From a virus, in the IMG/VR virus record IMGVR_UViG_3300031758_000085, positions 1 through 58,706 of that record: a stretch of DNA of 58,706 nt; one strand, given 5' to 3'. This document shows, piece after piece, positions 14,308-32,471 of the stretch (positions are counted from its first letter, which is position 1; every line of letters starts with the position of its first letter). The notes under the pieces were generated by a model that saw only the letters and a list, made by a program, of their open reading frames with translations, made no database searches and had not been told where the DNA came from. The position numbers were made by a program, and so were the translations under genes.

Positions 14308-15258
14308 ATGACGACATTTGTGACTGGTGGTTTGGGATTTATTGGATCTAATTTTGTCCATGCTCACCTAAAAAAGCATCCTTCTGATACAGTTGTTATT
14401 ATTGACAACTACTCGTACGCAGCAGATTCGAACAATATTCTTGGTCTTCATGAGGACTATCGTGTCATCGTGAAGCGTTGTGACATTCGCAATCTCCCTT
14501 TACTGGATCAAATTTATCACGATTATGAGCCAGACATTACCTTTCATTTTGCGGCTGAGTCTCATGTTGATAATTCTATTGCTGGTGATGACATTTTCCT
14601 CAGCACCAATATTGATGGCACTCACAACATTCTAAAATGTATTCGTAAGTTTGGTGGCAAACTCGTACATATCTCTACCGATGAAGTCTATGGATCACTC
14701 TCTCATGACGATCCACCATTCACCGAAAAGACTCCATACGATCCTCGCAATCCGTATTCTGCATCAAAGGCAGCAAGCGATCATTTAGTTCGCGCATATG
14801 TGAATACACATAAGATTGATGCAGTTGTGACTAATTGCTCAAATAACTACGGTCCGCGACAGCACAAAGAAAAGTTTATCCCAACAGTAATTCGTCATAT
14901 CAAGAACAATACACCAATTCCTGTTTATGGTACAGGTCAAAATGTTCGTGACTGGATCTTTGTCGACGATCATTGCGAGGCATTGCTCACGATCGGTGCA
15001 AACTTTAAGTCTGGTGAGCGTTATAATATCGGCGGTGGAGTTGAGATGAGCAACCTTCAAATGGTTACACTGATTCTCGATCTAATGGGCAAACCAGTTC
15101 ACATGTATCAGAACTGGATTAATTTTGTACCTGATCGTAAAGGTCACGATTTTAGGTACTCGATGGATGCGACTAAAATTGCACACGACTTGGGTTGGCA
15201 AGCGAAAACGAATATTAATGATGGCTTAATTAAAACTTTGGAGTGGTATAATGCGTAA
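14308..15258 (+). CDS. rmlB: dTDP-glucose 4,6-dehydratase
   Basis: Converts dTDP-glucose to dTDP-4-keto-6-deoxyglucose, 316 residues, extended SDR family. The NAD-binding GGLGFIGS is at residues 7-14, the active-site STDEVYG at 123-129 (Thr124-Asp125-Glu126 as in RmlB), and Y150xxxK154 in YSASK. NYGPRQHKEKFIPTVI follows as in RmlB. All catalytic residues are present. It opens a four-gene sugar operon and overlaps rmlA by eight bases. A role in making a deoxysugar for host surface or phage decoration is inferred. Confidence 0.93.
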   Translation: MTTFVTGGLGFIGSNFVHAHLKKHPSDTVVIIDNYSYAADSNNILGLHEDYRVIVKRCDIRNLPLLDQIYHDYEPDITFHFAAESHVDNSIAGDDIFLSTNIDGTHNILKCIRKFGGKLVHISTDEVYGSLSHDDPPFTEKTPYDPRNPYSASKAASDHLVRAYVNTHKIDAVVTNCSNNYGPRQHKEKFIPTVIRHIKNNTPIPVYGTGQNVRDWIFVDDHCEALLTIGANFKSGERYNIGGGVEMSNLQMVTLILDLMGKPVHMYQNWINFVPDRKGHDFRYSMDATKIAHDLGWQAKTNINDGLIKTLEWYNA

Positions 15259-16123
15259 AGGAATTATTTTATCTGGTGGACTAGGCTCACGTCTATACCC
15301 ATGCACAAAGGCGATATCTAAGCAGTTACTTCCTGTCTACGACAAACCATTGGTCTACTATCCAATCTCAACATTGATGATGGCGGGCATTCGAGATATT
15401 CTGATCATCACGTCACCCATTGATCGTGCACCATTTGAGAATCTAATTGGAAATGGTTCTCAGTGGGGATTGAGCATTTCTTATGCTACTCAATTGGAGC
15501 CAAAGGGTATCGCCGAATGTTTTCGTATTGCTGAGAAATGGATCGGTGAAGATGATGTCACGCTTATTCTTGGCGACAATATCTTCTATGGCAATGAACT
15601 TATCAATCGTTTCAATCGCGCAGCAAACAACCACAAGGGTTCTACCTTATTTGCATATCATGTTGCTGATCCAGAGAGATTTGGTGTGATTGAACAAGAC
15701 TCAAGTGGCAATCCAGTTAAGATTATTGAAAAACCAAAAGTTGCACCAAGCAATTATGCAGTCACTGGGCTTTACTTTTATGACAATAAAGTAGTAGACT
15801 ATGCATGGCAGATTCAGCCTTCTGCAAGAGGAGAGTTAGAGATCACTGATATTAATAATCTTTACATGGAAAACCATGATTGTACAATTGAATATCTAAA
15901 TCGTGGTATTGCATGGATTGATACTGGCACATTCGAATCTCTATCTGAGGCGTCAACTTTTGTTGGCTCAGTACAAAGAAGAACAGGCATGATGATTGCT
16001 TGCCCCGAAGAAATAGCGTATAATAATGCTTGGATCACAGAACACGAAGTTCGTCGTGCTGCTGAGAAGTACAGCAAGTCTGATTATGGTAAATATCTTG
16101 GTCAAATTTTGAGGATGAAATAA
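15251..16123 (+). CDS. rmlA: Glucose-1-phosphate thymidylyltransferase
   Basis: Makes dTDP-glucose from dTTP and glucose-1-phosphate, 290 residues, the usual length. The signature GGLGSRLYPCTKAISKQLLP begins at residue 9 with R14, and LILGDNIFYG carries the metal-binding Asp. VIEKPKVAPSNYAVTGLYFY and RGELEITDINNLY are typical RmlA segments. It overlaps rmlB by eight bases and the next gene by one base, so the product goes straight to RmlB. Confidence 0.94.
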   Translation: MRKGIILSGGLGSRLYPCTKAISKQLLPVYDKPLVYYPISTLMMAGIRDILIITSPIDRAPFENLIGNGSQWGLSISYATQLEPKGIAECFRIAEKWIGEDDVTLILGDNIFYGNELINRFNRAANNHKGSTLFAYHVADPERFGVIEQDSSGNPVKIIEKPKVAPSNYAVTGLYFYDNKVVDYAWQIQPSARGELEITDINNLYMENHDCTIEYLNRGIAWIDTGTFESLSEASTFVGSVQRRTGMMIACPEEIAYNNAWITEHEVRRAAEKYSKSDYGKYLGQILRMK

Positions 16124-17418
16124 TGAGTGACGTAAAACAAATGATTGAAGAATTGGTTGCCACTGTTGGCACACCGAAGTATGCTTACAATTGCAAAGAG
16201 TTTACTCCTGGCAAAGATACAGTCTTTTATTCTGGTCCATATTGGGACGAGAAAGAAGTCATTGCTGGCGTCACTGCATTCCTCACAGGCAAGTGGCTCG
16301 TCTCTGGTGAGCAGGTTGCAAAGTTTCAGTGGGCATTCGGTCACAAGTTTAATGTGAAGCATTGTCACATGGTGAACTCTGGGTCATCAGCCAACTTGAC
16401 TATGGTTGCTGCTCTTAAGAAGCACTTGGGTTGGAAGGATGGTGATCAAGTTATCGTATCACCCGTTGGATTCCCAACAACGATTGCTCCGTTGGTTCAG
16501 AATGGTCTTGCTCCAGTCTTTGTTGACATTGAAATGAAAACGCTCAACTTTGATCTTGATCAAGTTGAAAAGTGGATCACTGATAAGACCGTCGCTATTT
16601 TCGTTTCACCCGTTCTCGGCAATCCGCCACATATGGATCGCATCAAAGATATGTGCGAGCGACACGGCATTCGTTTGATTGGCGATAACTGCGATTCATT
16701 GGGCACAAAGTGGGATGGTAAACTTCTAACGGATTATTACTATGCGTGGACAACTTCTTTCTATCCTGCTCACCACATTTCGACAGGCGAAGGCGGGATG
16801 GTTTGCTCAAACGACGAGCAACTCATCAACACTGCTCGCAGCATTAGCTGGTGGGGTCGTGATTGTCGTTGCGTTGGTGCTGCTAACCTATTGGCTTGTG
16901 GAACATGTGGTAATCGCTTTGATAAATGGCTTGAAGGATATAATGGAATAATCGATCACAAGTATCTCTTCACGAACATGGGATATAATCTCAAACCACT
17001 TGATCTTCAAGGTGCGATTGGTATTGAGCAGTTGAAAAAGATTGATGAAATTGACGTCAAGCGTCGTGTGAACTTTGCGCGCATCAAGCATCTCTTTGAA
17101 AAGTATATCCCTGGTGTTCGTGTTGCTGAGAATCTTCTCTTGGCTGATCCGTCATGGTTCGGTGTTCCGTTGATCACTGATACACCTGAACTGAAGGAAA
17201 AACTACAAGCCTTCTGTGAAGAGAATAAAATTCAAACTCGCAATTACTTCGCTGGAAATATTCTATTGCATCCTGGCTACAAGCATCTTGATGATGCTAC
17301 CAAGTATCCAAACGCAAACAAGGCATTGAGCAATGTGTTCTTCGTCGGATGCCCACCGCACTACGGTGAAGAAGTGTTTGCCTATTATGAGAGTGTAATG
17401 CAAAAATGGGTATGCTAA
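16123..17418 (+). CDS. RfbH/SpnQ-type [2Fe-2S] PMP-dependent sugar 3-dehydrase
   Basis: A DegT/DnrJ-fold enzyme of 431 residues. In ordinary sugar aminotransferases a Lys binds PLP. Here the segment is SFYPAHHISTGEGG with His217-His218 at that site, as in RfbH (E1, Yersinia ascarylose) and SpnQ, which use PMP and remove the 3-hydroxyl by radical chemistry. The iron-sulfur cysteines are also visible: C190, C248 and C250 keep the C-x57-C-x1-C spacing I recall for E1, and C259/C262 (in TCGNRF) supply the fourth, with a few extra residues. It therefore probably deoxygenates C3 of a dTDP-4-keto-6-deoxy sugar made by RmlA/RmlB. No dedicated reductase partner (RfbI type) is seen here. Confidence 0.85.
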   Translation: MSDVKQMIEELVATVGTPKYAYNCKEFTPGKDTVFYSGPYWDEKEVIAGVTAFLTGKWLVSGEQVAKFQWAFGHKFNVKHCHMVNSGSSANLTMVAALKKHLGWKDGDQVIVSPVGFPTTIAPLVQNGLAPVFVDIEMKTLNFDLDQVEKWITDKTVAIFVSPVLGNPPHMDRIKDMCERHGIRLIGDNCDSLGTKWDGKLLTDYYYAWTTSFYPAHHISTGEGGMVCSNDEQLINTARSISWWGRDCRCVGAANLLACGTCGNRFDKWLEGYNGIIDHKYLFTNMGYNLKPLDLQGAIGIEQLKKIDEIDVKRRVNFARIKHLFEKYIPGVRVAENLLLADPSWFGVPLITDTPELKEKLQAFCEENKIQTRNYFAGNILLHPGYKHLDDATKYPNANKALSNVFFVGCPPHYGEEVFAYYESVMQKWVC

Positions 17419-18290
17419 ATGTTTTCGGAGGAAACGGATTCGTCGGATCGCAATTCTGCAATACAACGAAAAATGGGTATATCAAAAATTATCGAGAAAA
17501 TATCGGAGTATTTTCTCCCGACGTTGTTTACTTTATTAGTACTGTTGACAATTATAACGTACACGTCGATCCTAATTTGGATATTGACACTAATCTAACG
17601 ATTTTGATGAGAGTTCTGAACAATTATCGATTCTATATAGAGACGAACAAGAAAGATGGATGTTTCAACTTCATCAGTTCTTGGTTTGTCTATGGACAGG
17701 ACTCGGGTTTCGGAGAGGGTGCACGTGGCATTCCTGAAACAGATCCTTGTGATCCAAAGGGTTTTTATTCGATAACAAAACGATGCGCTGAGCAGTTGCT
17801 TATGTCTTATTGCGAGACATTCAATTTGAATTACCGCATTCTGAGATTAGCCAATGTCCTTGGTCCGAAAGATAAAAAAGTTTCTGCGAAGAAGAACGCA
17901 GTCCAATATCTATTGGGCGAACTCGCTGCAAACAAACGAGTCGACCTCTATGATAGTGGTTATTTTTATCGTGACTATATTGATGTTAGGGATTGCGCTC
18001 GAGCAATCGATTTGGTCGTCAACAAGGGCGAACTCAACTCAATCTACAACATCGGAAACGGAAAGGGAATAATCTTTCGTGATATTATTCGTTATGCTCG
18101 AGATGCAATGGACTCTGGCTCAGAGATTCGTACGATTGAACAGAAAGAGTTTCATAAGAAGGTTCAATCTTCTCGCTCTTTCTTTATGGATAATACCAAG
18201 TTAAAAGAGTTGGGATATCGTTCAGAGCATACGATCAACGAAACGATTGATACGATCATTCAAGATATCTTAATTAATCAAATTAACTAA
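17406..18290 (+). CDS. NAD(P)-dependent epimerase/reductase (extended SDR)
   Basis: A 294-residue extended SDR. The cofactor motif is shortened to FGGNGFVGS near the start, and YSITK supplies the catalytic Tyr-Lys pair. A Ser-rich ISSWFVYG strand precedes it as in sugar epimerases, and YRDYIDVRDCARAI is the usual C-terminal signature. It is the last gene of the sugar operon, overlapping the 3-dehydrase by 13 bases; ATG codons at 17406 and 17412 are both possible starts. It likely reduces the 4-keto group or epimerises the product. The exact sugar is unknown. Confidence 0.82.
   Translation: MGMLNVFGGNGFVGSQFCNTTKNGYIKNYRENIGVFSPDVVYFISTVDNYNVHVDPNLDIDTNLTILMRVLNNYRFYIETNKKDGCFNFISSWFVYGQDSGFGEGARGIPETDPCDPKGFYSITKRCAEQLLMSYCETFNLNYRILRLANVLGPKDKKVSAKKNAVQYLLGELAANKRVDLYDSGYFYRDYIDVRDCARAIDLVVNKGELNSIYNIGNGKGIIFRDIIRYARDAMDSGSEIRTIEQKEFHKKVQSSRSFFMDNTKLKELGYRSEHTINETIDTIIQDILINQIN
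17494..17517 (+). other. Perfect 9-bp inverted repeat in SDR gene
   Basis: GAGAAAATA (17494-17502) and TATTTTCTC (17509-17517) flank a 6-base loop, about 90 bases into the SDR coding sequence. The stem is AT-rich, so it is a weak RNA hairpin. No U-tract follows. Confidence 0.3.
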
Positions 18291-18322: not shown

Positions 18323-19465
18323 ATGTTTGGCTTCAAGCAGTATATTCCTTTATTATCAGAACAGAAAAAACCAGTTCGCGGAATACTACACCTCCCACAT
18401 CCTTCTGAAGCCGCTTTTAACACTCGTAAAGGCGCAGTCGGATCCACTCTCTCCAAGATTCAAGGTGTTATCAGTGGTCGCACTCCGATCACTCGAAAGA
18501 TCGACGATCGCATGTCCTTCCAGACTATTCGCACTCCAGAAGGTAAAGTCGGTGTGAAATATAAAGGTACTGGCGCGACCTATAATTTCTCAGCCGAAGA
18601 TATTAAAAAGCAACACAGCGAAAAGCCATACATCGCTGGACCACTAATGAATATTCTCAAGCACGTTCATAAAGTGCTTCCAAAGGGTCCAGGCGAGTAT
18701 CAAGGTGGTTATCTCAGTTCTCTTGAAGATCGCACCGAAGAAGATGGTAAAATCGGTCATAAGCCAAATACGATTCGCTATTCTGTAGATAAAAATTCTC
18801 CAGAAGGAAAGAAACTTGCAAAGGCTCCGTTGAGTATTGCATTGCACTCACGCATTGCTGAAGATGGCAGCACAACTCCAATCGGTGAAGGTGAGTTACA
18901 AGAACATCCAGATGTCCATCTGATGAGTCATCTTGTTTCTAGCGAAGAAAGAAAACTATCTCCAGACGCAAAAAGAAAAGCACTTGAGCATATTGCTGCA
19001 GCCAAGAAACTTGGGCAAAAGCATTCTCATGATCACCATGAAGGTCATGATGAAACTCTATTGCGTTATGCAAACTCAACCATTGATACTGGTGAAAAGC
19101 CAAACGCAAAGGGCTATATCAAATTCCTAGAAAAGCACCATCAGAAAAGAATAGATTCTGTAAAAACAGAAAAGGCTAAAAACCAAAAAGCAGAAGAAAG
19201 AAAAGCCTCGATCAATCATGTAAATGATAACCTAGATAAATTCGATAAGACATTTGATATGCATCATCATATTCAACAAGCAACATATGCTGTTGCTGAT
19301 GCATTATCCAAAACAGCCAGTGGTGGTTACTCTCACAAAATCGATGGAGAAGAAGCTGCTGGTGAAGGATTCGTTTCGGGTGGAATGAAGTTTGTTCCAA
19401 GAAAATTCACTGAAGCAAATCGTAAACGTTCAGCAGCACTGAAAGCGCAAAAGAGTCTAATATGA
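18323..19465 (+). CDS. DUF6267-like protein with capsid-targeting-like start
   Basis: A 380-residue protein. The start MFGFKQYIPLLSEQ resembles the T4 internal-protein capsid-targeting peptide (MKTYQEFIAE). The middle follows the order I recall for DUF6267 of marine T4-like phages: a KWDG-like motif (here KIDD, K59), then KVGVKYKG, then GEYQGGYLSS and KPNTIRYSV. That order resembles nucleotidyltransferase/ligase motifs, but the second Asp in place of Gly and the loss of GDL suggest it may be inactive. The C-terminus is a Lys-rich helix with a GGMKFVPRKF tail. Likely a virion-internal protein; function unknown. It overlaps the next gene by four bases. Confidence 0.65.
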   Translation: MFGFKQYIPLLSEQKKPVRGILHLPHPSEAAFNTRKGAVGSTLSKIQGVISGRTPITRKIDDRMSFQTIRTPEGKVGVKYKGTGATYNFSAEDIKKQHSEKPYIAGPLMNILKHVHKVLPKGPGEYQGGYLSSLEDRTEEDGKIGHKPNTIRYSVDKNSPEGKKLAKAPLSIALHSRIAEDGSTTPIGEGELQEHPDVHLMSHLVSSEERKLSPDAKRKALEHIAAAKKLGQKHSHDHHEGHDETLLRYANSTIDTGEKPNAKGYIKFLEKHHQKRIDSVKTEKAKNQKAEERKASINHVNDNLDKFDKTFDMHHHIQQATYAVADALSKTASGGYSHKIDGEEAAGEGFVSGGMKFVPRKFTEANRKRSAALKAQKSLI

Positions 19466-22194
19466 GTAAAGCAACATTTACCTTTGGAAGATTCAACCCA
19501 CCAACAGAAGTGGGTCATGGTAAATTGGTGAGCGCAGTTCAATCACATGCAGAAAAAACTGGCGGTCGTCATTACATCTTCCCATCACACTCTCAAGATT
19601 CCAAGAAAAATCCATTGACTCATGGTGACAAAGTTGGCGCAATGAATCGCATGTTTCCAAACGCAAATGTTGTTTCCTCTGGTAAAGTGCGCACAGCAAT
19701 TGATGCGATGAAGCATTTAGAGAAACAAGGACACAAAGAAGTTACAATGGTTGTTGGTTCTGATCGCGTTGATAACTTCCATTCTCTACTCAATAAATAT
19801 AGAACTAAAGAATTTCCAGGAATCAAAAAAGTGAACGTTGTATCAGCAGGTCATCGAGATCCAGACGCAGAAGGTGCTGAAGGTATGTCTGCTTCTAAAC
19901 TTCGTGGATTAGTTGCTGCTGGCAAGAAAAACGAATTTGTTTCACACTATAGCGATCCAAAATTGGGCGCACATATACATGATAAGGTAAAAGCAGGTAT
20001 GCAAATGGAATCAACAAACCCAGTCGGCATTTTTCTACTTGGTGGTCCAGGAAGCGGAAAGGATTATCTTCTCAAGAATATCTTTTCTCGTTTCGACCTA
20101 ACTGAGGTTCAAGCCGATCAAATTCTCAATGGTGCTGCTGCAGAACTATTCGAATCAAATAAAAATATCGTCATCAATGGCGCTAATGATGCTGAGAAGA
20201 TCGAACTAGTACAGAATATGCTCGAAGGCTACACCTTTGATTTTGTTCATGTATCTGTTACAAATAAAGTTTCTCGTTTGCGCAATGAACAGCGTGAACA
20301 ACCAATTACTGAATCAAAGCGTATTGACAAATATCTAAAAGCTGAGCAATTAGCAAAAGATGTTGAAGCATTTATTTTCAATAACTCAATCAATCTCAAC
20401 GAATCATCAGAGATGGAAAGATTGTTTTTCGGTTCTCAAATCGAAAAACTTCTAGAAAGAGTTGTTGAACTCGGACTTCACATTGAAGAAACTCCAGCAC
20501 CAAAATCGTTTTCAATTCTTCGCGAAAAGAAGTTTCCTACAGTTGCAAAAGATAAGGCATCAGGATTACCTAAGAAATATGTTCGTGGATTGAGTGCCTC
20601 AACAGCGAAAGCAAGAGCAGCTCATTGGAAAGAAAAATCAAAGTTATCTGACAGTGATCCGCGTGCATATGAGCCAGCTCCTGGCGATGCAACTGCAAAA
20701 ACGAAACCAAGCAAGCATACTCTCGCTGTTCGTAAGATGATGGATGAGGCTGAGCAACAAAAGGTTCGCCGCATTGCTCGTAGTGGCAACATCACTGCAG
20801 TGATGGACAAGCGTAAAGATACTGGGCGTGTCAACGAAGGTGCTTCTGATTCTTCTATCTCAGCAAAAGCGGAGAAGTCTGGTATCTCTGTCGGCACACT
20901 CCGTAAAGTTTATAATCGCGGAGTTGCTGCTTGGAATTCAGGACATCGTCCAGGAACAACACCACAACAGTGGGGTCATGCTCGTGTGAATTCTTATATC
21001 AACAAAGGTAAGACATATCATACAGCAGATAAAGATCTGCGTGAAGATGTAGAAGATCTAGATGCGCTATTTGAGATGCAATTGGTGGGTACAGACGAAT
21101 ATCGTAAGCATGCCATTGCTATGACGCCAGGACAGGGAGAAGTTGAAGATGCTTACAAATCTAAAAAGAATGCTATTCCAGAAGAAACCGATTGTGGATG
21201 CGAAAGCGATTGCGGCTGCGACGATAGCAATCAAAATGAATCGACTGGAGGAAGAGGTGAGCGAAGTGTTCCAAAGAGTTTTAGAGACCTCAGAACAGAA
21301 GCCAAAAAAGAAAAAGAAGAAGACACTCAAGTAACTGCAGTGTTTGATCCAAAATTAGGTGACTCTAAAAAGAAAGCATCAAATATCAAAACTCCACCAA
21401 GAAATATTGATTCAACAATGCAGGGACTTCCTGTTGCTTCTCGCTTCAATGCATATGAAGAAAAGAAGCCAGAGGATAAGTTTATGCCAACTCCTCGTCA
21501 GGTTCCAGCACCTCCAGGCGGTCATGCTGTTCCAAAAGGATATAAGCGAGTCAAAGACCATATCGCTGGTTGGAAACTTGTCAAAGAAGAAGATGCTCCA
21601 GAACTAACTCTTGAAGAGGCAGTTCAGTATCACCTCGAGAATAATATTTCGATCACAGAAAACGTTTTTCGTCCAGCATCTGAAATGTTCTTTGAAATGA
21701 TCAAAGAAGCCAAGCGTCTTTATAAAGAAGGAAAGTATACTCCTAAAGACGAATGGGAAAAAGACATGCTTCAAACAGATATTGGCGAAATCGCAGAGTT
21801 CGAGGGTCAAGCAGTCGTTCTTGATTATCCAATCGAAGAGGGTCTTGAGGAGTGCTGGACTGGTTACACTCAGAAGGGAATGAAAAAGAAAGGTGATAAG
21901 ATGGTCCCTAACTGCGTTCCGATGAGTGAAGCAGAAGATCCAACTGGTGGTAAGGGTATCGGCAAACCATTTCGCTCTGGTGGTGGTGGCGCTGTATATG
22001 TTCGTGTTGGAGACGGCATTCGCAAGATCAATTTTAGCCAATCTGGAATGACAAAGAAGTTCAACGATCCTGCAGCAACTCGCAGTTTCGTTGCTCGTCA
22101 TCACTGCTTGTCTAATAAAGATAAGACGTCAAGATCTTATTGGGCATGCCGTTGGCCAAGATTCTTTAGCAATTCAGGAAAAACATGGTGGTAG
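19462..22194 (+). CDS. Multidomain internal-protein candidate: nucleotidyltransferase + P-loop + small modules
   Basis: A 910-residue fusion. Residues 1-170 are a cytidylyltransferase-fold domain: FGRFNPPTEVGHGKL holds the HxGH-type motif (here E-V-G-H), GSDRVDNF is the substrate loop, and MSASKLR the C-terminal motif. Residues 190-320 are a P-loop domain with GGPGSGKD (K200). The rest is a chain of modules found as small proteins in other phages as I recall: KFPTVAKDKASGLPKKYVRG, the helical GTLRKVYNRGVAAW region, a Cys-rich CGCESDCGCDD patch, CWTGYTQKGMKKKGDKMVP and a basic C-terminus rich in Arg and Trp. The order recalls NadR (NMNAT plus kinase), but the kinase substrate cannot be told. 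It lies in the internal-protein block. Confidence 0.7.
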   Translation: MSKATFTFGRFNPPTEVGHGKLVSAVQSHAEKTGGRHYIFPSHSQDSKKNPLTHGDKVGAMNRMFPNANVVSSGKVRTAIDAMKHLEKQGHKEVTMVVGSDRVDNFHSLLNKYRTKEFPGIKKVNVVSAGHRDPDAEGAEGMSASKLRGLVAAGKKNEFVSHYSDPKLGAHIHDKVKAGMQMESTNPVGIFLLGGPGSGKDYLLKNIFSRFDLTEVQADQILNGAAAELFESNKNIVINGANDAEKIELVQNMLEGYTFDFVHVSVTNKVSRLRNEQREQPITESKRIDKYLKAEQLAKDVEAFIFNNSINLNESSEMERLFFGSQIEKLLERVVELGLHIEETPAPKSFSILREKKFPTVAKDKASGLPKKYVRGLSASTAKARAAHWKEKSKLSDSDPRAYEPAPGDATAKTKPSKHTLAVRKMMDEAEQQKVRRIARSGNITAVMDKRKDTGRVNEGASDSSISAKAEKSGISVGTLRKVYNRGVAAWNSGHRPGTTPQQWGHARVNSYINKGKTYHTADKDLREDVEDLDALFEMQLVGTDEYRKHAIAMTPGQGEVEDAYKSKKNAIPEETDCGCESDCGCDDSNQNESTGGRGERSVPKSFRDLRTEAKKEKEEDTQVTAVFDPKLGDSKKKASNIKTPPRNIDSTMQGLPVASRFNAYEEKKPEDKFMPTPRQVPAPPGGHAVPKGYKRVKDHIAGWKLVKEEDAPELTLEEAVQYHLENNISITENVFRPASEMFFEMIKEAKRLYKEGKYTPKDEWEKDMLQTDIGEIAEFEGQAVVLDYPIEEGLEECWTGYTQKGMKKKGDKMVPNCVPMSEAEDPTGGKGIGKPFRSGGGGAVYVRVGDGIRKINFSQSGMTKKFNDPAATRSFVARHHCLSNKDKTSRSYWACRWPRFFSNSGKTWW

Positions 22195-22463
22195 AAAATA
22201 AGCCATATGAGGATCAAAAACTAAATAATTGGTCCTTTATACGAACCTTCAAACATGATGTGTTGAATGAAGAGTTGGCTTGGCATCGTGATGAAAATGG
22301 TAGATTTATAGAAGTATTAGAGGGTAGTGGCTGGGAGATCCAGTTTGACGATAAGTTACCAGAAAAGTTATACAAGGGCGATAGGTTTTTTATTCCCGCA
22401 AAAACCTTTCATAGACTAAAACGTGGGACAACAGATCTTACAGTAAAGATCGAGGAATTCTAA
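22185..22463 (+). CDS. Small cupin-like protein
   Basis: A 92-residue protein with a compact cupin pattern: LAWHRDENGRFIEVLEGSGW followed by GDRFFIPAKTFHRLKRG. The His-rich strand, the Gly turn and the second His (in FHRL) match a small cupin barrel; metal binding is possible. Similar proteins occur in marine T4-like phages as I recall. It overlaps the 910-residue gene by ten bases and abuts the next gene. Enzymatic role unknown. Confidence 0.65.
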   Translation: MVVENKPYEDQKLNNWSFIRTFKHDVLNEELAWHRDENGRFIEVLEGSGWEIQFDDKLPEKLYKGDRFFIPAKTFHRLKRGTTDLTVKIEEF

Positions 22464-23924
22464 ATGGCAGACGTAAAAGTTCCAGCACTCTTGCACAAGA
22501 TGTCAAAGGCTGCACAAAAGGCTTGGTATAAGAAAAATAATATGGCGATGCCTGATGATGCTGGCGGCAGATCTGCTGCAGCAGCAAAACGTGTAAAAGT
22601 TGCACCAAGAAAAGAAATTGCTGTCGAACCAAATTCTGTTCGCGCCATCAATGCTGCAAAACAAAAGGCTTATATGGCAAAGGGCGGTCGTCAACCAATC
22701 GGTGCTGCTGGTTCTGGTGGGCATAGTTCTATGGCTGGATCAAATATGTCAACGGCAAAGGGTATCGTTGCTGGAATCAAAGCAGGATATAACCCAAAAG
22801 TTTCACTAGATCCATATGAGTCAGAGAAAGCAAAGAAAGTTGGTCCACGATCACTCAAACTCAAAAAAGAATCAGTTGATAAAGAAATGATTGGCGAAGT
22901 TAGTCGTATGATGGATAAAGTCATCAAGAAACCTTCCTCTGTTGATATCGCATCAGATGTCACAAAATTTCTAGAAAGAGGTGGAAAGGTTACTGTATAT
23001 AAGCCACAAAAAGCCAAATTTAGAGCAGGAACAGCATTGGCATCAAAACACGATACAACAGTTGCAAAAGCCGCAGGTGGCAAACATGTCATGAGAAATC
23101 AGATTGGTAAAAATCTTGGGTTGGCTCGTGCAGGATTACTAAACAAAATGCTCACACCAAGTAAAAAAGAAAAATTTGCCACTGAGTCAGTTGAACTCGA
23201 CGAAGTCACAAAGAAAGAAGCTGAAGCAGTTATCGGCGGTCCAGTCAAGGAGAAACCAAAAATGCCACCAGGAAAACAACCAGCAGGATATCGCTACGTT
23301 CGTTCACTTGCTCGCAAGGCTATGAAGGGTGGCGTCTCTGCAATTCATAAATCAATGGAAAAGACCATGCAAAAAGAAGATGTCAATGAGGCAGTCAAAG
23401 ATGCAGCAGACGTCGGCGAGTATGATTACGAAGGAGATATGGCAAAGTCTCAACTTCGTAGTATCATGGCAAACTCAAAGCGTATGCATGATATGCTCGA
23501 AGAAAATACAAATCTTCCTGAGTGGGTACAGAGCAAGATTACTCTTGCTGAAGATTACATTTCAACTGCATCAAATTATATGCAAGGTGAGATGAACGAA
23601 GAAGTCGAACAGATTGATGAGAAAATGAATTTGGCAAAAGCCAAGATGGGTGATGTTGTGAAAGACTTCTATAAATCAAAGGCACCTCAGTTCAAAGGAA
23701 AGAGCATGGCAAAGCGTCGTGAGATGGCTGTTGCCGCAAAACTTGGCGCTGAGCGAGAAGCAGGAATGCGCGAAGAAGTCGTAACAGAAGGTGAAGGCAC
23801 TGTTGCTGTAACTCCAAAGGAAAAGGCACTCGCTGCGCATCACGGCGATAAAACAAAAATCACATATGGTGATGTAATCAAGGCAAGACTCAAATCAGCC
23901 GCTGCAAAGAAGATGGGTAAGTAA
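22464..23924 (+). CDS. Modular basic internal-protein candidate (486 residues)
   Basis: A Lys/Ala/Met-rich protein built from small modules. An N-terminal Ala/Lys helix region is followed by a Gly-rich SAAGSGGHSSMAGS-type linker, then ESVELDEV, KEDVNEA and NEEVEQIDEK (residues 379-387) acidic breaks between basic segments. The module EYDYEGDMAKSQL...LPEWVQSKITLAEDYI, about residues 315-372, matches a small conserved phage protein I recall as free-standing elsewhere. The basic segments suggest DNA contact inside the head. The acidic motifs resemble T4 gp21 prohead-protease sites (L/I-x-E). No enzymatic motif is visible. Confidence 0.65.
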   Translation: MADVKVPALLHKMSKAAQKAWYKKNNMAMPDDAGGRSAAAAKRVKVAPRKEIAVEPNSVRAINAAKQKAYMAKGGRQPIGAAGSGGHSSMAGSNMSTAKGIVAGIKAGYNPKVSLDPYESEKAKKVGPRSLKLKKESVDKEMIGEVSRMMDKVIKKPSSVDIASDVTKFLERGGKVTVYKPQKAKFRAGTALASKHDTTVAKAAGGKHVMRNQIGKNLGLARAGLLNKMLTPSKKEKFATESVELDEVTKKEAEAVIGGPVKEKPKMPPGKQPAGYRYVRSLARKAMKGGVSAIHKSMEKTMQKEDVNEAVKDAADVGEYDYEGDMAKSQLRSIMANSKRMHDMLEENTNLPEWVQSKITLAEDYISTASNYMQGEMNEEVEQIDEKMNLAKAKMGDVVKDFYKSKAPQFKGKSMAKRREMAVAAKLGAEREAGMREEVVTEGEGTVAVTPKEKALAAHHGDKTKITYGDVIKARLKSAAAKKMGK

Positions 23925-23925
23925 T

Positions 23926-25806
23926 ATGAAACATGTAGTCGAACTCAAATACACCAATCCTTCTCACGAACATGTTTCTTTGCGACGTCGCGTTGAAACA
24001 GTCAATCGTGTTGTTGAGGCTCAAAGTGCTGACGAAGCCTTGAATCGTGCTGCAAATCAGCAGCGTTCACTTGGATTTCGTATTCAATCTGCAAACATTG
24101 TTGAGCAGAAAATTGAAGAATCAACAAGTGCATTGATTTCAGAAGAAACTGAACTTGAAGAAGGAAAGATTGCAAAAGCACTTGCCGTTGGTGCAATGGC
24201 GCTTGCTTCCATGGGCGCAAAGGCTCACACTGACACAACAAAGTCAGTGGCTCAACTTGCTCAAGAACGCCCAGCACTTGCACAGCGATTGCATGATATT
24301 GGTGCGTCAGGTCAAGTTCCAGCATCAGATAAGCGTGCTGCTGAATTGCAAAGAAAGCAGGATCAAGAAATGCCAGCCTCTGAGCGTCGTGCGAAAGAGT
24401 TGAAGAAAGAAGAAGTCGAATCAGTAAACGAAGACCAAGCCGCTGATTGGCAAAAAGTCCAGAGCATGGAAAAGGGTTCAATGACTGGCGGAAAAGATGC
24501 AATGAAAATGCATCTATCGTATTTGAAAGCAGTTCACGCTCACCAAAAGAAATACGGTTTGGATACAGCAAAAACTAAAAAGAAAATTGGCGATGTGAGC
24601 AGAAGTTTAGTTCAGATGGGCGAAGAAGCCGAACAGGTTGATGAAGCCCAAAAGAAACTCAAGCCATCTTACTGGAAAGCAGAGTGGCGTTTAGGCACAC
24701 AATCTGAAGTTGATAAAAACAACAAAAAGATCTTTGATAAACTTGCAAAAACTGATCCAGTCAAGGCTTCAGCATTCCATGATAATCTCATGAGAATGAA
24801 GAAGAAAGATGTGAAGGAAGAAGCCGAGCAGGTTGATGAAGCCAAGAAAACAAAGAAAGAGAAACTAAAAACACTTCTTTATCGCAACAGATCAAATGTA
24901 AGGAAATTCGGCAAGGGCGCAGGTCTTACCACTGCACAAAAAGCGGCAGCAAGAAGAGCCATCGCAAATGAAGAAGTCGAGCAAACAGACGAAGCTGTTC
25001 GTATTGTTGATGCTGAAAGAGGTTTGATTAGGAAATCAAATGTCAAAATCCGACCATGGTCGTTCTCGGCATCAGATGCCAGAGATCGTCTCGCTCAAGC
25101 AGCAAAAGAGCGTCGCAAAATCACAGGTGAGCCAGGTGTCAAAGGATTCAATAAAGATATTGGTTATGCCCCAATCAAACACATGGACACTGGATATGTT
25201 AGAGCGATAAAGAAAGAAGATGTCGAGCAGGTTGATGAAGCCAACATGCGTTTTGATCCAGAGGCTGCTGCTCGTCCAAAGTCATCTGATGTCAAGAACT
25301 TTTTGAATCGAGATAAGAATGCTCGTGCTGGTGCTGCTTCTAAGAAGTATATTCGTCGCATGACAAAACTCGGTGGTCTTGGTCCAAATCAGACTAAAAA
25401 AGACACTGAAAAACATATGAAAGATTATTTCGAAGAAGTTGAAATCTCAGAAGCATCAAAAGAAGGCAAATCTGTAATGTACGGTATGCGCGCTTCAATG
25501 AAAGCAATGGATCTACGACATGGCGTTGATTCAGACAAGCGTGATGCTGGATACAAGATGTCACCCGCTGTTCGTGCTGCTCAAGCCAAGTCTGATGCTC
25601 TTTCTAAGGTTGAAAAACCAGTGCAGGCAGGAACTCTTGCTGCTCTAAAACGAAGAGAGATGAAGAAAGAGGCAGTAGATCCAGGTTCTATGAAAGTGGT
25701 AAATAAGAAAGTAAAAGCTGCTGACAAAATGATCAAAGCAGCAAAAGGTAAAGTGAATAAAATTGATCTAAAACCAACTCTTGATCTAGACAGTTATAAG
25801 GATTGA
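23926..25806 (+). CDS. Modular basic internal-protein candidate (626 residues)
   Basis: A second long Lys/Arg/Ala-rich protein. Residues 1-65 form a small alpha/beta domain (VVELKYTNPSHEH, then SADEALNRAANQQRSLGF). After that, basic segments are separated by near-identical acidic motifs: EEAEQVDEA at 233-241 and 298-306, EEVEQTDEA at 349-357, EDVEQVDEA at 431-439 and EEVEISEA at 503-510. Each has a [VIT]-[DS]-E-A core like the T4 gp21 site. Several intervening segments (for example the DARDRLAQAAKERRKITGEP region) look like separate small proteins. Likely packaged and processed in the prohead; function unknown. Confidence 0.65.
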   Translation: MKHVVELKYTNPSHEHVSLRRRVETVNRVVEAQSADEALNRAANQQRSLGFRIQSANIVEQKIEESTSALISEETELEEGKIAKALAVGAMALASMGAKAHTDTTKSVAQLAQERPALAQRLHDIGASGQVPASDKRAAELQRKQDQEMPASERRAKELKKEEVESVNEDQAADWQKVQSMEKGSMTGGKDAMKMHLSYLKAVHAHQKKYGLDTAKTKKKIGDVSRSLVQMGEEAEQVDEAQKKLKPSYWKAEWRLGTQSEVDKNNKKIFDKLAKTDPVKASAFHDNLMRMKKKDVKEEAEQVDEAKKTKKEKLKTLLYRNRSNVRKFGKGAGLTTAQKAAARRAIANEEVEQTDEAVRIVDAERGLIRKSNVKIRPWSFSASDARDRLAQAAKERRKITGEPGVKGFNKDIGYAPIKHMDTGYVRAIKKEDVEQVDEANMRFDPEAAARPKSSDVKNFLNRDKNARAGAASKKYIRRMTKLGGLGPNQTKKDTEKHMKDYFEEVEISEASKEGKSVMYGMRASMKAMDLRHGVDSDKRDAGYKMSPAVRAAQAKSDALSKVEKPVQAGTLAALKRREMKKEAVDPGSMKVVNKKVKAADKMIKAAKGKVNKIDLKPTLDLDSYKD

Positions 25807-25809
25807 TCA

Positions 25810-26268
25810 ATGCTGAAGTTCAAACAATTTATAAACGAAAGTGTTGACGATACTATTGATACCGATAGTCGCAGACTCTCAGAAAATATGGAAGCATTCA
25901 ATGATGAGCTCGATAATCTCACATTGAAGCCATATCAAAATGCTCCTGTGTTTTTAGCGCAGTTGCGTGGTGTTTGTGAGCGTTATGGAATTCAGATTCC
26001 TCAATCAGCAACACCTGAATTCATGAATCTTGGTGCTGAGTTAGTATACTCTCTTGGCACTAGTGGGTTTCATCTTTACATTGTATACGATACGCATGAA
26101 GAAGATGGATTTGTTGATGGTTATGCGCAAGTCGTTTCAAGTGATGAATTGCAAGATTTGATGGGCATGTCTGTTGAGGACTTGGCTGGTGAGAGAGAAG
26201 CAATGCTTATTCCACCAAATACCTATCGCAAGAGAGATGATGACGCAGGCAATAGCGACGAATACTAA
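25810..26268 (+). CDS. Protein with capsid-targeting-like N-terminus
   Basis: A 152-residue protein starting MLKFKQFINES, very close in pattern to the T4 IPIII capsid-targeting peptide MKTYQEFIAE. The body is a beta-rich domain (PVFLAQLRGVCERYGIQIPQ, then AELVYSLGTSGFHLYIVYD) followed by an acidic tail. Similar proteins are seen in marine T4-like phages as I recall. It follows the modular genes with a three-base gap. Probably a virion-internal protein; function unknown. Confidence 0.6.
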   Translation: MLKFKQFINESVDDTIDTDSRRLSENMEAFNDELDNLTLKPYQNAPVFLAQLRGVCERYGIQIPQSATPEFMNLGAELVYSLGTSGFHLYIVYDTHEEDGFVDGYAQVVSSDELQDLMGMSVEDLAGEREAMLIPPNTYRKRDDDAGNSDEY

Positions 26269-26271
26269 TAT

Positions 26272-26661
26272 ATGTTTTTTGATGAATTGAATGAATCGAA
26301 TATTTTATTATATGCAGCCAAGTGCTATGATAAGCCAAACTGCATTGATAGTGAGTTCGATGAAGATTATAAAAAACTTCGTTATATAAAGCGATTACTG
26401 CATCGATATAGAATTACAGGAGAGTTGAAGGAAAGACTTATTCTTAATCATCTTGTAGTTGCTCAAAATGTTTTTGGCATTATACCGTGTACTAGAATGT
26501 TATTTTTATGTATTGATGAAAAAGATTATAGTGCTCTTAAAACGTTTCTCGTTTACACATCAGCGATGCCAAAGGTGATACAAGGGATAAGAGGTGAAGA
26601 CATAATCTCAAGTGATATTGAATTAGACAATAGAATTGTAAGTGTTCTAAGAGATCTTTAG
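26272..26661 (+). CDS. Conserved phage protein (DUF7207-like)
   Basis: A 129-residue helical protein. KYIKRLLHRYRITGELKERL-type and then ILNHLVVAQNVFGIIPCTRM, LKTFLVYTSAMP match a protein I recall as widespread in marine T4-like phages (DUF7207). The start MFFDELNES has a weaker resemblance to the capsid-targeting peptide of its neighbours. More AT-rich than surrounding genes. Function unknown; its constant place near head and tail genes suggests a late role. A 50-base gap with a TATAAT box follows. Confidence 0.65.
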   Translation: MFFDELNESNILLYAAKCYDKPNCIDSEFDEDYKKLRYIKRLLHRYRITGELKERLILNHLVVAQNVFGIIPCTRMLFLCIDEKDYSALKTFLVYTSAMPKVIQGIRGEDIISSDIELDNRIVSVLRDL

Positions 26662-26681
26662 TTCATAGCGGACATACTGAT

Positions 26682-26687
26682 TATAAT
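26682..26687 (+). promoter_or_regulatory. TATAAT box upstream of 26712 gene
   Basis: TATAAT sits in the 50-base gap before the 120-residue gene, within TTATAATAGA, the same 10-mer that precedes uvsX at 9761. No good -35 hexamer is seen at 16-18 bases upstream. It may be a promoter of the same class as the uvsX one. Confidence 0.35.
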
Positions 26688-26711
26688 AGAAAATAAAGAC
26701 AAAATCAAGTA

Positions 26712-27074
26712 ATGAAAAAGTTTAACGAATTCAATGAATCAATTGCAATGAGTGTCGGTAGTGGCGCTGTAGCAGGAATGCCAACAGCAACTCCAGCAGA
26801 GCAAACTCCAGTTGGTTTAGGTAAAAAGAAAAAGATGCTTCGTCGCATCACACCACATGATATGTTTGGTGGAATTCCAGTATTCAAAGTTCGTTCTGAA
26901 GACTATCAAAAGGCAGTCTTGGGAAAGAAAAAGTTCAAGCACTATACATCCTATGTCTCTGGTTCGTTGGGTGAGGATGTTCGTGATTTCGCCGCGCAAA
27001 ATCCATCTTCTGGAATAATTGTTCAAGATGAGATCACTGGCGCAATGTTTTTTCTGAAGCACGGGAAGAAATGA
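26712..27074 (+). CDS. Protein with capsid-targeting-like N-terminus (120 residues)
   Basis: Starts MKKFNEFNESIAMS, again like the T4 capsid-targeting peptide, followed by a Gly/Ala/Pro-rich linker and a basic GKKKKMLRRI patch. The C-terminal domain (PVFKVRSEDYQKAVLGKKKF ... NPSSGIIVQDEITGAMFFL) has a pattern I recall from small marine phage proteins. Probably virion-internal. The next gene starts two bases after its stop. Function unknown. Confidence 0.6.
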   Translation: MKKFNEFNESIAMSVGSGAVAGMPTATPAEQTPVGLGKKKKMLRRITPHDMFGGIPVFKVRSEDYQKAVLGKKKFKHYTSYVSGSLGEDVRDFAAQNPSSGIIVQDEITGAMFFLKHGKK

Positions 27075-29957: not shown

Positions 29958-32471
29958 ATGGCGACAATGAATAAAACATTTAGTGTTAAGACAGGTCTTG
30001 ACCTTGCTAATACTATAATTCTCGATTCGAATCGTAATATTTCGAACGTTAATATTGCCAACCTTCATACGATTAATGCGAATACAATCGTAACAACGGG
30101 TGGTCTAAACGTTATTGATCAAGCCAATACAGCTCGTGGAACTGCTAACGACGCTTATGCGCAAGCAAATACTGCTCGCGACACAGCAAACGACGCATAT
30201 GCTCAAGCGAATACTGCTCGTGGTACTGCGAATGATGCATATGCTCAGGCTAATTCTGGATACGCCCAAGCAAACGCTGCCCGCGATCAAGCCAATACTG
30301 GTTATGGTCAAGCAAATGCCGCTTATGGACAGGCTAATGCTGCTTACGGTCAAGCCAACGCTGCTTATGCCGAAGCCAATGTTTCTGCCAATACTGTTTC
30401 TGTTACAGTTGGTGGTCTGACTCTTAATAATAAGAAACTTTTCCTACAAAACACAAACTCAGTAACTCTCGAGTTGCTGGATGATGGTGTTAATGCAAAT
30501 CTTGTTATTCGTAGTAGCGGTGGTATTGCTTATGATCAAGCAAATGCTGCGCGCGAACAAGCCAATACTGCTCGCGACACTGCGAATGACGCATACGGTC
30601 AAGCAAATACTGCGCGCACCACTGGCAACAATGCGTATGCTCAAGCGAACACAGCACGTGATACCGCAAATGATGCATATGGCCAGGCAAATACAGCCCG
30701 CACGACTGCTAATGATGCATATGCCCAAGCAAATACCGCACGAGGCACTGCAAATGATGCGTATGCGCAAGCAAATGCTGGTTACGCTCAGGCAAATGCT
30801 GGTTATGGGCAAGCAAATGCCGCTTATGGGCAAGCAAATGCTGCTTATGGGCAAGCGAATGCAGCATACGGTGAAGCAAATCTAAAACTTAACCTAACTG
30901 GTGGTACAGTCTCTGGTGACCTTACCGTTCAAGGTAACTTGTATCTAACAGGTAATGCAACGTATATCAACGTTGCGACCGTGAGAGTTAATGACTCGAT
31001 TATCCAGCTATCAACGAATTCAACTTCTGACGCTGTTGATATTGGTTTCGTTGGTCACTACAGCGACGATGGTGGTACAACTAATCTTCATTCTGGCTTT
31101 ATTCGTCATGCCTCTGATAATGTATTCTACATCTTTGATGGTTATGCAACAGAACCAAGCAATAACGTAATTGATGTTGCTTCTGCAAATCTTGCATGGT
31201 TGCGCGCAAATGTAAATGCTGCATCTCTCTTGTTGCAAGGTAATACAGTTGCGACTCAAGCCAATCTAACGATTGCTAATGATCAAGCGAATGCTGCATA
31301 TCTCCAAGCGAATACTGCTCGCACTACTGGCAACGATGCATACGCTCAAGCCAATACAGCACGCGACACGGCAAATGGCGCATATGCTCAAGCCAATGGT
31401 GCGTACTCGCAAGCCAATGGTGCTTATGCTCAGGCAAATGGTGCATACAGTCAAGCAAACGGTGCCTTTGCACAGGCTAATGGTGCGTACAGTCAAGCCA
31501 ATGGTGCTTATGCTCAAGCCAACACCTCTGCAAACACGGTTCGTGTTTATGCAAACAGCGCTGGTGAGTTGTCGAATAAATTCCTAAACTTTATCAATAC
31601 TGCAAGTATTCAAGTCAGTGTTATCGATAATGCTGATGGAAATGCGAATATCTCCTTTAGTACGACTGGCGCTGCTGTTGCTGATGCTTATGCTCAAGCC
31701 AACGCTGCTTACGGTCAAGCGAATGCCGCATATGGACAAGCAAATACTGGCTATGGTCAGGCGAATGCTGCATACGGACAGGCTAACGCTGCGTATGGGC
31801 AAGCAAATGCGGCATACAGCCAAGCCAATGCAGCCTATGACGAAGCCAATACTAAAGTTGAGACAATTGTAACAGGTCTTGGTCTATCTAATACTGAAGT
31901 CACGACTGCAAATGTCAAGACAGTAACGATTACACCAAACATTGCATCTACGACAGTAATTGGTGTCACGAAACTCGTTGATTCGATTACTTCTACCGAT
32001 ACTGCAAACGCTGCGACTGCAAACTCAGTCAAGTGGATAAACGACGTCAAGGTCGATCGTGCTGGCGATACGATGACTGGCAAGTTGACTATCAACACTG
32101 CTGGTGAAGGTCTTGAAGTTGCAAATGCAAATGTAACGAATACCTTAACTGTTGAAGCATTGAAGGTTACAACTAACACTGTAACGACAGCTGCTTCGGG
32201 TCAAGTTGTGCTCGATATTTTCCCAACAACCGATCTTGCTTCTGCAAAATACTTTGTACAAGCCAATAGTGGTTCAACGTATCACACTACTGAAATTATC
32301 CTCGTTCATGAAGGCACAAATATTTGGATTACTGAATACGGTACAATTCAAACTGGTGCTTCATTGGGTACTTTCAATGCGGACATTGATAGTGGAAATG
32401 TGAGATTGTTGTTCAACGCTACACAATCAATTAATACAATCCGCGCTGTACGTTATGGCATAGTCCCATAA
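29958..32471 (+). CDS. Long tail fibre protein with 7-residue AYxQANx repeats
   Basis: An 837-residue fibre. The first 35 residues (NKTFSVKTGLDLANTI) match the next gene's start, so they probably form a shared attachment domain. Four blocks of heptads of the kind AYAQANT-ARDTAND follow, with Tyr/Arg at one position and Gln-Ala-Asn fixed. They should form a regular rod, coiled coil or beta-helix. Between blocks are beta domains (GLTLNNKKLFLQNTNSVTLE; LKLNLTGGTVSGDLTVQGNL) typical of fibres. The C-terminal domain is shared with the gene before. A phage tail rod function is likely; no enzyme motif. Confidence 0.85.
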   Translation: MATMNKTFSVKTGLDLANTIILDSNRNISNVNIANLHTINANTIVTTGGLNVIDQANTARGTANDAYAQANTARDTANDAYAQANTARGTANDAYAQANSGYAQANAARDQANTGYGQANAAYGQANAAYGQANAAYAEANVSANTVSVTVGGLTLNNKKLFLQNTNSVTLELLDDGVNANLVIRSSGGIAYDQANAAREQANTARDTANDAYGQANTARTTGNNAYAQANTARDTANDAYGQANTARTTANDAYAQANTARGTANDAYAQANAGYAQANAGYGQANAAYGQANAAYGQANAAYGEANLKLNLTGGTVSGDLTVQGNLYLTGNATYINVATVRVNDSIIQLSTNSTSDAVDIGFVGHYSDDGGTTNLHSGFIRHASDNVFYIFDGYATEPSNNVIDVASANLAWLRANVNAASLLLQGNTVATQANLTIANDQANAAYLQANTARTTGNDAYAQANTARDTANGAYAQANGAYSQANGAYAQANGAYSQANGAFAQANGAYSQANGAYAQANTSANTVRVYANSAGELSNKFLNFINTASIQVSVIDNADGNANISFSTTGAAVADAYAQANAAYGQANAAYGQANTGYGQANAAYGQANAAYGQANAAYSQANAAYDEANTKVETIVTGLGLSNTEVTTANVKTVTITPNIASTTVIGVTKLVDSITSTDTANAATANSVKWINDVKVDRAGDTMTGKLTINTAGEGLEVANANVTNTLTVEALKVTTNTVTTAASGQVVLDIFPTTDLASAKYFVQANSGSTYHTTEIILVHEGTNIWITEYGTIQTGASLGTFNADIDSGNVRLLFNATQSINTIRAVRYGIVP
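30118..31851 (+). repeat. Tandem 21-base (7-residue) repeats in fibre gene
   Basis: Four blocks (about 30118-30387, 30526-30879, 31279-31530 and 31675-31851) encode the heptad A-Y-x-Q-A-N-x and its A-R-x-x-A-N-D variant. Codon choice varies between copies, so DNA identity is only partial and protein sequence is the conserved level. Copy-number change by slippage would alter fibre length in steps. Confidence 0.85.

Follow-up and report, generated by a model that had tools for sequence, protein, structure and literature searches.

The window, that is, the whole 58,706-base stretch analyzed here (one IMG/VR virus record, IMGVR_UViG_3300031758_000085), contains a conserved block of genes at 18323-27074 that is probably a variant form of the internal-protein system known from T4. 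Under this reading, an N-terminal capsid-targeting peptide (CTS) would bring block proteins, or relatives of them, into the prohead, as in T4, and a gp21-type protease would then cut after [LIVMF]-x-E and so remove the CTS. In the multimodule chains, the same cutting would separate small basic modules at their junctions, and the enzymes and basic modules would remain associated with the DNA in the head and pass into the host cell on infection. The modules would be exchangeable cassettes, each encoded either alone, with a CTS of its own, or within a chain, with a cut-type site just before it.

The open reading frames and N-termini reported in the preliminary description of this DNA were all present in the ORF list, in place and as given, and the block is real and conserved beyond this record. 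Among the 600 pattern matches listed for a DUF7207 query against IMG/VR, at least 592 encoded a relative, and 80 related loci from that search were retained for counting; a further 519 annotated phage records, mostly of cyanophages, matched DUF7207. Read from the sequences, the ORF order in the window goes from a polymerase-recombinase-helicase run to nucleotide-sugar genes to the block, and 3' of the block lie a small lipoprotein, a membrane protein, an endolysin-like protein, and many tail-fibre-like proteins. Family scans (Pfam and PHROGs) covered ten window proteins, and the other gene names come from reading the sequences. Directly 5' of the block, at 14308-18290, epimerase-like (nucleotide-sugar), nucleotidyltransferase-like, and aminotransferase-like genes stand in a run. 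A long protein at 29958-32471 carries many copies of an AYxQANxA-type repeat, and one of the fibre-like proteins that follow it, at 54704, has lectin-like Laminin_G_3 and TIG domains. The end of the block lies directly 5' of the DNA primase gene in S-WAM1, S-CREM2, and S-SCSM1; in Melnitz-3 the primase is likewise downstream, with about ten small genes intervening, and in T4 gene 61.1 adjoins primase gene 61. The features of the block are as follows, with an arrow marking each putative cut.

18323..19465, + strand: DUF6267 protein (Pfam E 6.9e-31) with a predicted ligase-like fold and a family-conserved CTS-like leader
18359-18361, + strand: E codon of the putative processing site LLSE↓Q of the protein at 18323
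19462..22194, + strand: multidomain chain with a nucleotidyltransferase (phrog_3041, 9.6e-66), a weak kinase-like region, a DUF5824 module (1.8e-19), a CW-GY module, and a C-terminal module
20836..20838, + strand: E codon of RVNE↓G, the junction ahead of DUF5824 (residues 470-527) of the protein at 19462
22185..22463, + strand: cupin-like protein within the block, without a CTS (Cupin_2, 3.7e-05, under the Pfam cut-off)
22464..23924, + strand: basic multimodule chain with four E-ending sites (E codons 23202-23204, 23388-23390, 23619-23621, and 23787-23789)
23926..25806, + strand: basic multimodule chain with six E-ending sites (E codons 24430-24432, 24643-24645, 24838-24840, 24991-24993, 25237-25239, and 25450-25452)
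25810..26268, + strand: 152-amino-acid protein with the strong CTS MLKFKQFINE↓S (E codon 25837-25839; matrix score 22.8), then a small folded domain
26272..26661, + strand: DUF7207 protein (6.4e-33), a conserved neighbor in the block
26712..27074, + strand: small basic protein beginning MKKFNEFNE↓SIAMSVGSGAVAG... (matrix score 5.2, family alignment)

One fixed pattern was used to look for a T4-type CTS, which opens 92 of the 1173 nonredundant proteins encoded by the window and 80 related contigs. When residues 2 to 16 were shuffled over 200 rounds, the mean was 3.0 and no round gave more than 10. Seven of these 92 are DUF7207 proteins and are probably false matches. At internal methionines the pattern occurred 9 times in 5497. 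The matches cluster around the block: counting from the eighth gene before DUF7207 to the second after it, 144 of 640 genes carry the pattern compared with 9 of 763 farther off, in a count in which genes were not de-replicated and DUF7207 itself (41 of 77) was excluded. A matrix was built from 80 of the peptides; F occupies the first aromatic position in 79, F, Y, or L stands three residues later, L, I, or V comes next in 78, and E is present in all 80, a composition that is partly set by the collecting pattern. The conserved positions are residues 4, 7, 8, and 10 in T4 numbering, the same residues of IPIII for which suppressor analysis indicated a role in targeting and processing (PMC9026906).

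When the matrix was trained without T4, the T4 proteins ipIII, ipII, and ipI ranked third, fourth, and fifth of 284 ORFs. The first place was taken by gp61.1 and the second by an ORF starting where nrdD starts, which we regard as spurious. The true internal protein Alt scored -3.7, and some true internal proteins therefore escape the matrix. The proteins around DUF7207 in phiM12 had no clear CTS when inspected by eye, so the CTS is not universal. Overall, the CTS is conserved and predictive of known internal proteins, and these counts support the earlier proposal of capsid targeting by a T4-like N-terminal peptide; its action as a targeting signal here would follow by analogy with T4. In the literature searched, "capsid targeting" and "cyanophage" occurred together only in one T4 review.

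Within the window, the only strong CTS is that of the protein at 25810. The scores at 26712 (5.2) and 18323 (3.4) lie below 6.6, the 99% point of the matrix score over shuffled N-termini, and the proteins at 22464, 23926, and 26272 and the window copy of 19462 do not carry the peptide by our definition. T4-like starts had originally been ascribed to four proteins, and that ascription stands firmly for 25810, stands through its family for 18323, is weak for 26712, and fails for 26272. The MFFDELNES of 26272 forms the N-terminus of the conserved DUF7207 family (about 120 amino acids) and falls outside the top ten matrix scores of the window. Its homologs are missing from two virion proteomes (gp159 of S-CREM2 was undetected, PMC10665884, and gp276 of S-SCSM1 is unmarked), and we rejected it as a targeted protein.

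The CTS of 25810 is shared by 13 of its 19 family members. Residues 1 to 12 had pLDDT values below 50 in its model, and a PDB fold search returned nothing at an E value of ≤1e-3. In the family of 26712, several relatives join a CTS to a peptide resembling the N-terminal arm of the capsid protein. The protein at 18323 was assigned to the CTS class on the support of its family, in which 18 of 26 relatives fit the pattern and an alignment of 23 sequences has F4 and L11 nearly invariant and E13 invariant. The mean pLDDT of its model is 90.7, with residues 1 to 20 near 35, and the leader thus appears to be conserved yet disordered.

A ligase-like protein and a nucleotidyltransferase had been proposed as members of the block, and both were recovered, at 18323 and 19462, respectively. 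For 18323, the best 50 matches in a structure comparison (VIA) were all ligases or ligation complexes, the top one with Z 9.1 and an rmsd of 3.5 over 177. Foldseek gave nothing at an E value of ≤1e-3, and its best match was T4 RNA ligase 1. The ligase motif reads K-I-D-D in the window protein and K-x-D-G in most relatives. PDB sequence searches with 18323 and 19462 returned no ligase and one adenylate kinase match (E 0.003). The predicted fold suggests that 18323 is a ligase-like protein. There was no DUF6267 protein among the virion proteins examined of S-CREM2 and S-SCSM1. The 910-amino-acid protein at 19462 has a kinase-like region that matches Zeta_toxin at E 0.0018, under the cut-off, and its window copy is without the CTS found in 12 of 34 family members. 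It contains the E-ending sites NLNE↓S and RVNE↓G and had been left out of the original motif count. For its nucleotidyltransferase, a part in NAD restoration was considered as a possibility.

The two long proteins are basic, as first described, with 93 K+R against 59 D+E in 22464 and 129 against 95 in 23926. Neither matched a Pfam or PHROGs family above the cut-off or contained a recognized enzyme domain, and tblastn with 23926 against annotated phages gave no match. The titles and abstracts searched held no description of such module chains, and the names DUF6267, DUF5824, DUF6321, and DUF7207 were absent from the literature searched. The four sites of 22464 and the six of 23926 comprise ELDE↓V, DVNE↓A, EQIDE↓K, VVTE↓G, SVNE↓D, EQVDE↓A (three times), EQTDE↓A, and EISE↓A. 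The preliminary description had counted at least nine acidic motifs here; ten E-ending sites are indeed present, but only seven of them fit its two formulas letter for letter, so that its count needs a looser pattern. The third residue before the cut (P3) is V in six sites, T in one, I in two, and L in one, and only 3 of the 10 therefore agree with the strict T4 rule, under which gp21 cleaves after L/I-x-E (PMC9026906).

Similar acidic tags recur in the relatives. Their core, [EQ][VILT][DNS]E, occurred 245 times in the nonredundant proteins of the loci and the window, against 82 expected; in the count by gene position, made without de-replication, proteins with at least two tags numbered 57 at offsets -7 to +1 of DUF7207 and 2 elsewhere. 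With the longer left half of the tag fixing the register, E occupied P1 in 77 of 80 cases and P3 was I in 43, V in 22, L in 9, T in 4, and M in 2; with the shorter form, E occupied P1 in 59 of 90. The residue after the tag E was A or L in 71 of 149, and 162 of 314 left-half matches were without [LIVTM]-x-E in register.

Single modules provide the strongest test of these sites. In all 39 distinct contexts of DUF6321 (28 internal and 11 N-terminal), an [LIVMF]-x-E ends 2 to 4 residues before the first tryptophan, compared with 9% when random positions of these proteins were taken. Since 13 of the 28 internal contexts are variants of one upstream sequence (EELYE↓SAAW), and the tryptophan register was chosen after the contexts had been viewed (an earlier register gave 14 of 29 against 27% at random), the p-value is not to be taken at face value. 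The sequence upstream of DUF6321 can be a CTS (EFMAE↓SPAW), a tag (TQIDE↓KSAAW), or something else, such as EELYE↓SAAW, and the same site ahead of the module can be supplied by a CTS or by an internal tag. Among 49 DUF6321 proteins, 14 are of at most 130 amino acids, 12 of them with a CTS, 19 exceed 200 amino acids, and the rest lie between. Junctions of the same type precede PSAYA in 10 of 10 cases (15% expected), CW-GY in 16 of 18 (22%), DUF5824 in 3 of 3 including the window protein at 19462 (33%), YEGDMA in 3 of 3 including that at 22464 (29%), and a fifth module in 1 of 2; the spacing window was set module by module, and each expectation refers to that window.

From these positions, the acidic tag appears to be one form of an [LIVMF]-x-E junction that stands ahead of shared modules. 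The cleavage motif first proposed is upheld insofar as gp21-type sites separate modules, but the motif is [LIVMF]-x-E rather than "DEA" as such. The statistics of position and residue argue that processing at module junctions is probable. In 11 of 11 relatives with the gene, L-[NTM]-E stands at the expected propeptide end of the capsid protein, a position set by homology. Peptidase_S77 was found in 11 of 15 records holding block relatives, and the four others are fragments of 63 to 80 kb, including the near-identical L002. No prohead protease (gp21) was noted in the incomplete 58.7-kb window record.

Published mass-spectrometric proteomes of two relatives allow the block to be followed into virions. 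Table 3 of the S-CREM2 report (PMC10665884) gives 52 of 219 proteins as detected, among them the block members gp154 (the nucleotidyltransferase, beginning MKNFSSFLTEA), gp155, gp156, and gp160, and not gp157, gp158, gp161, or the DUF7207 protein. Five of the seven S-CREM2 proteins that match the CTS pattern were detected, including the nucleotidyltransferase, a SAM hydrolase, and a kinase; the small terminase gp135 and gp199 were not. The kinase operon gp12-gp15 was detected in full, with a CTS at or near each N-terminus. Within it, gp12 (contig L087, 7704-10313, minus strand) is annotated as a Cas9-like nuclease and has LRFASFMAEA at residues 17 to 26; the corresponding proteins of related phages, which contain a comparable internal peptide, have no annotation beyond "hypothetical." In S-CRM01, whose virions have been reported to contain a kinase (PMC10665884), a CTS occurs on the homologous kinase and on its neighbors, including a nucleotidyltransferase-like gene. 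The kinase start fits the CTS less well in MA01, S-N03, and S-B68.

In the S-SCSM1 record we counted 47 coding sequences marked as virion proteins, where the published report states 45 (PMC9602691). Six block genes are so marked, and gp278, gp275 (the capsid-arm mimic), and gp274 are not. Only two of seven CTS pattern matches are marked, and a high-scoring CTS protein at 44215 is not. With the matrix threshold, the two phages pooled gave 4 of 6 against 94 of 504 (p 0.014). The tag proteins of S-CREM2 (one) and S-SCSM1 (two) are all virion proteins. A 69-amino-acid virion protein of S-SCSM1, gp279 (contig L115, 41626-41835), has a CTS-like stretch, RTFKEFLEYIE, at its end and not at its start. 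The proteome comparison covers these two phages; the stretch of the S-CREM1 record that was examined marks no virion proteins, and S-CBWM1 did not enter the comparison. The virion location foreseen for this class agrees with the presence of homologs of the nucleotidyltransferase and of the tag-bearing chains in the virions listed for both phages (PMC10665884, PMC9602691), and packaging of this protein class is well supported and very likely.

These detections admit other readings. Virion-reported proteins might be abundant late proteins carried over in CsCl, with the CTS-like starts meaning something else. The S-CREM2 authors raise carry-over in CsCl as a possibility (PMC10665884), and the proteins marked for the S-SCSM1 virion include RegA, a translation repressor (L115, 24558-24992), a possible sign of carry-over in that preparation. 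The same block was obtained from two independent phages, however, and the CTS recovers T4 internal proteins blind, and we regard carry-over as very improbable. A different case is that of the long tag chains being prohead-core components like gp22, gp67, and gp68, which would be cut, mostly expelled, and used to shape the head rather than serve as host cargo. In T4, the core proteins are broken down to several fragments and for the most part removed (PMC9026906), and because the scaffold itself (gp144) was detected in S-CREM2 virions, detection does not tell core from cargo. In one relative (L098, from the L018 record), the sites KEEALDE↓V and EEEQLNE↓V, which resemble tags, lie in the gene at the scaffold position, which looks as though modules had entered the scaffold as well. 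Yet the chains are basic and built of swapped modules, the same modules occur in stand-alone CTS-bearing proteins, the chains at 22464 and 23926 and the related L008 chain have no scaffold-family match in Pfam or PHROGs, and every record with gp23 has a separate scaffold gene beside it. A core role for the chains is thus unlikely.

The tags might also be linkers and recombination seams for module exchange that are never cut. Exchange itself is well represented: a 689-amino-acid protein of L008 contains segments of both window chains in changed order, three from 23926 (84 to 92% identity) and two from 22464 (86% and 56%), and module order was permuted in 7 of 27 protein pairs with at least two partial matches. 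Match ends lay within 8 amino acids of a tag in 30% of cases, against 15% at random, and tags have been lost at some places between close orthologs. The tags also have a codon bias of their own, with CAG for 65% of 66 Gln codons against 22% of 982 in the background, from which the tags would share descent at the DNA level; this fits a seam role beside cutting or instead of it. Against seams alone, module starts keep only a hydrophobic P3 and E at P1, the residues that gp21 reads, and a tag can be replaced by a CTS; a seam is, moreover, compatible with cutting. Uncut seams are accordingly a rather improbable account of the tags, and we retain processing at the junctions as the preferred reading.

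The system preferred here resembles T4 IPI, IPII, and IPIII (and Alt) in the aromatic residues at positions 4 and 7, the hydrophobic residue at 8, and the E at 10, as well as in the presumed gp21-type protease and the small basic proteins that would be packed with DNA, and differs in that the CTS is also found on enzymes and many small modules and that modules also occur in long chains with predicted L/I/V-x-E junctions (PMC9026906). The nucleotidyltransferase is homologous to the NMN adenylyltransferase-like virion proteins of S-CREM2, S-SCSM1, and S-CRM01, which were reported along with kinases; homologous kinase genes occur in S-CREM2 and S-CRM01 (PMC10665884, PMC9602691). No targeting signal is proposed in the available portions of those papers, whereas a CTS was found here on those proteins. 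Polyvalent proteins of phages and conjugative elements are likewise multidomain and predicted to be packed and injected, and some have been proposed to be processed, but they combine enzyme domains and use peptidase domains of their own, and the available text on them names no CTS, gp21-type junction, or cyanophage (PMC5512222). In phiKZ-like phages and SPN3US, many head-packed proteins are matured after E; the phiKZ rule is S/A-x-E as opposed to L/I-x-E, and module shuffling goes unmentioned in the portions of the source available (PMC9026906).

It is possible, and we put it forward tentatively, that the whole is a plug-in cargo system of environmental T4-like phages, in which swapped cassettes (small basic modules and enzymes) would be admitted by their own CTS or within a chain and freed by the head protease at a common [LIVMF]-x-E, with one particle delivering a large and fast-changing set of enzymes and small DNA-bound proteins, and that T4 would keep a relic of it, including gp61.1 as a packaged mimic of the capsid N-terminus. 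Cyanophage proteomics has found enzymes (NMN adenylyltransferase, kinases) in virions, with true packaging left undecided in the text available (PMC10665884, PMC9602691). A portable CTS would supply both a packaging mechanism and a way to predict cargo from sequence for many environmental phages, and, if the junctions are cut, chains whose exchangeable parts are matured within the head would be a new architecture.

The capsid mimicry was observed in the small proteins 3' of DUF7207, which can bear a peptide resembling the start of the mature major capsid protein. In S-CREM2, no protein matched the capsid arm better than gp160 (score 95; the next, 40). Among 11 contigs, the small protein ranked top and above 200 shuffles in 5 (for example, 95 versus 35 in L074), although two of these five exceeded the shuffles by 5 points or fewer, and in the other 6 another protein was on top and not above the shuffles. 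The window record has no capsid gene. In T4, gp61.1 (54 amino acids; contig L125, 18966-19130, minus strand), which a single paper in the literature searched names, and only in a gene table, aligns with gp23 gaplessly over 32 residues spanning the gp23 cut site. The score was 77, against a maximum of 36 in 1000 shuffles, and gp61.1 was the best T4 match after gp23 itself. As judged from its sequence, T4 gp61.1 thus appears to join a CTS to a mimic of the mature capsid N-terminus, followed by a basic tail, as block proteins of several relatives do, and differs from the block in being a single short protein. The likeness gives T4 gp61.1 a testable role.
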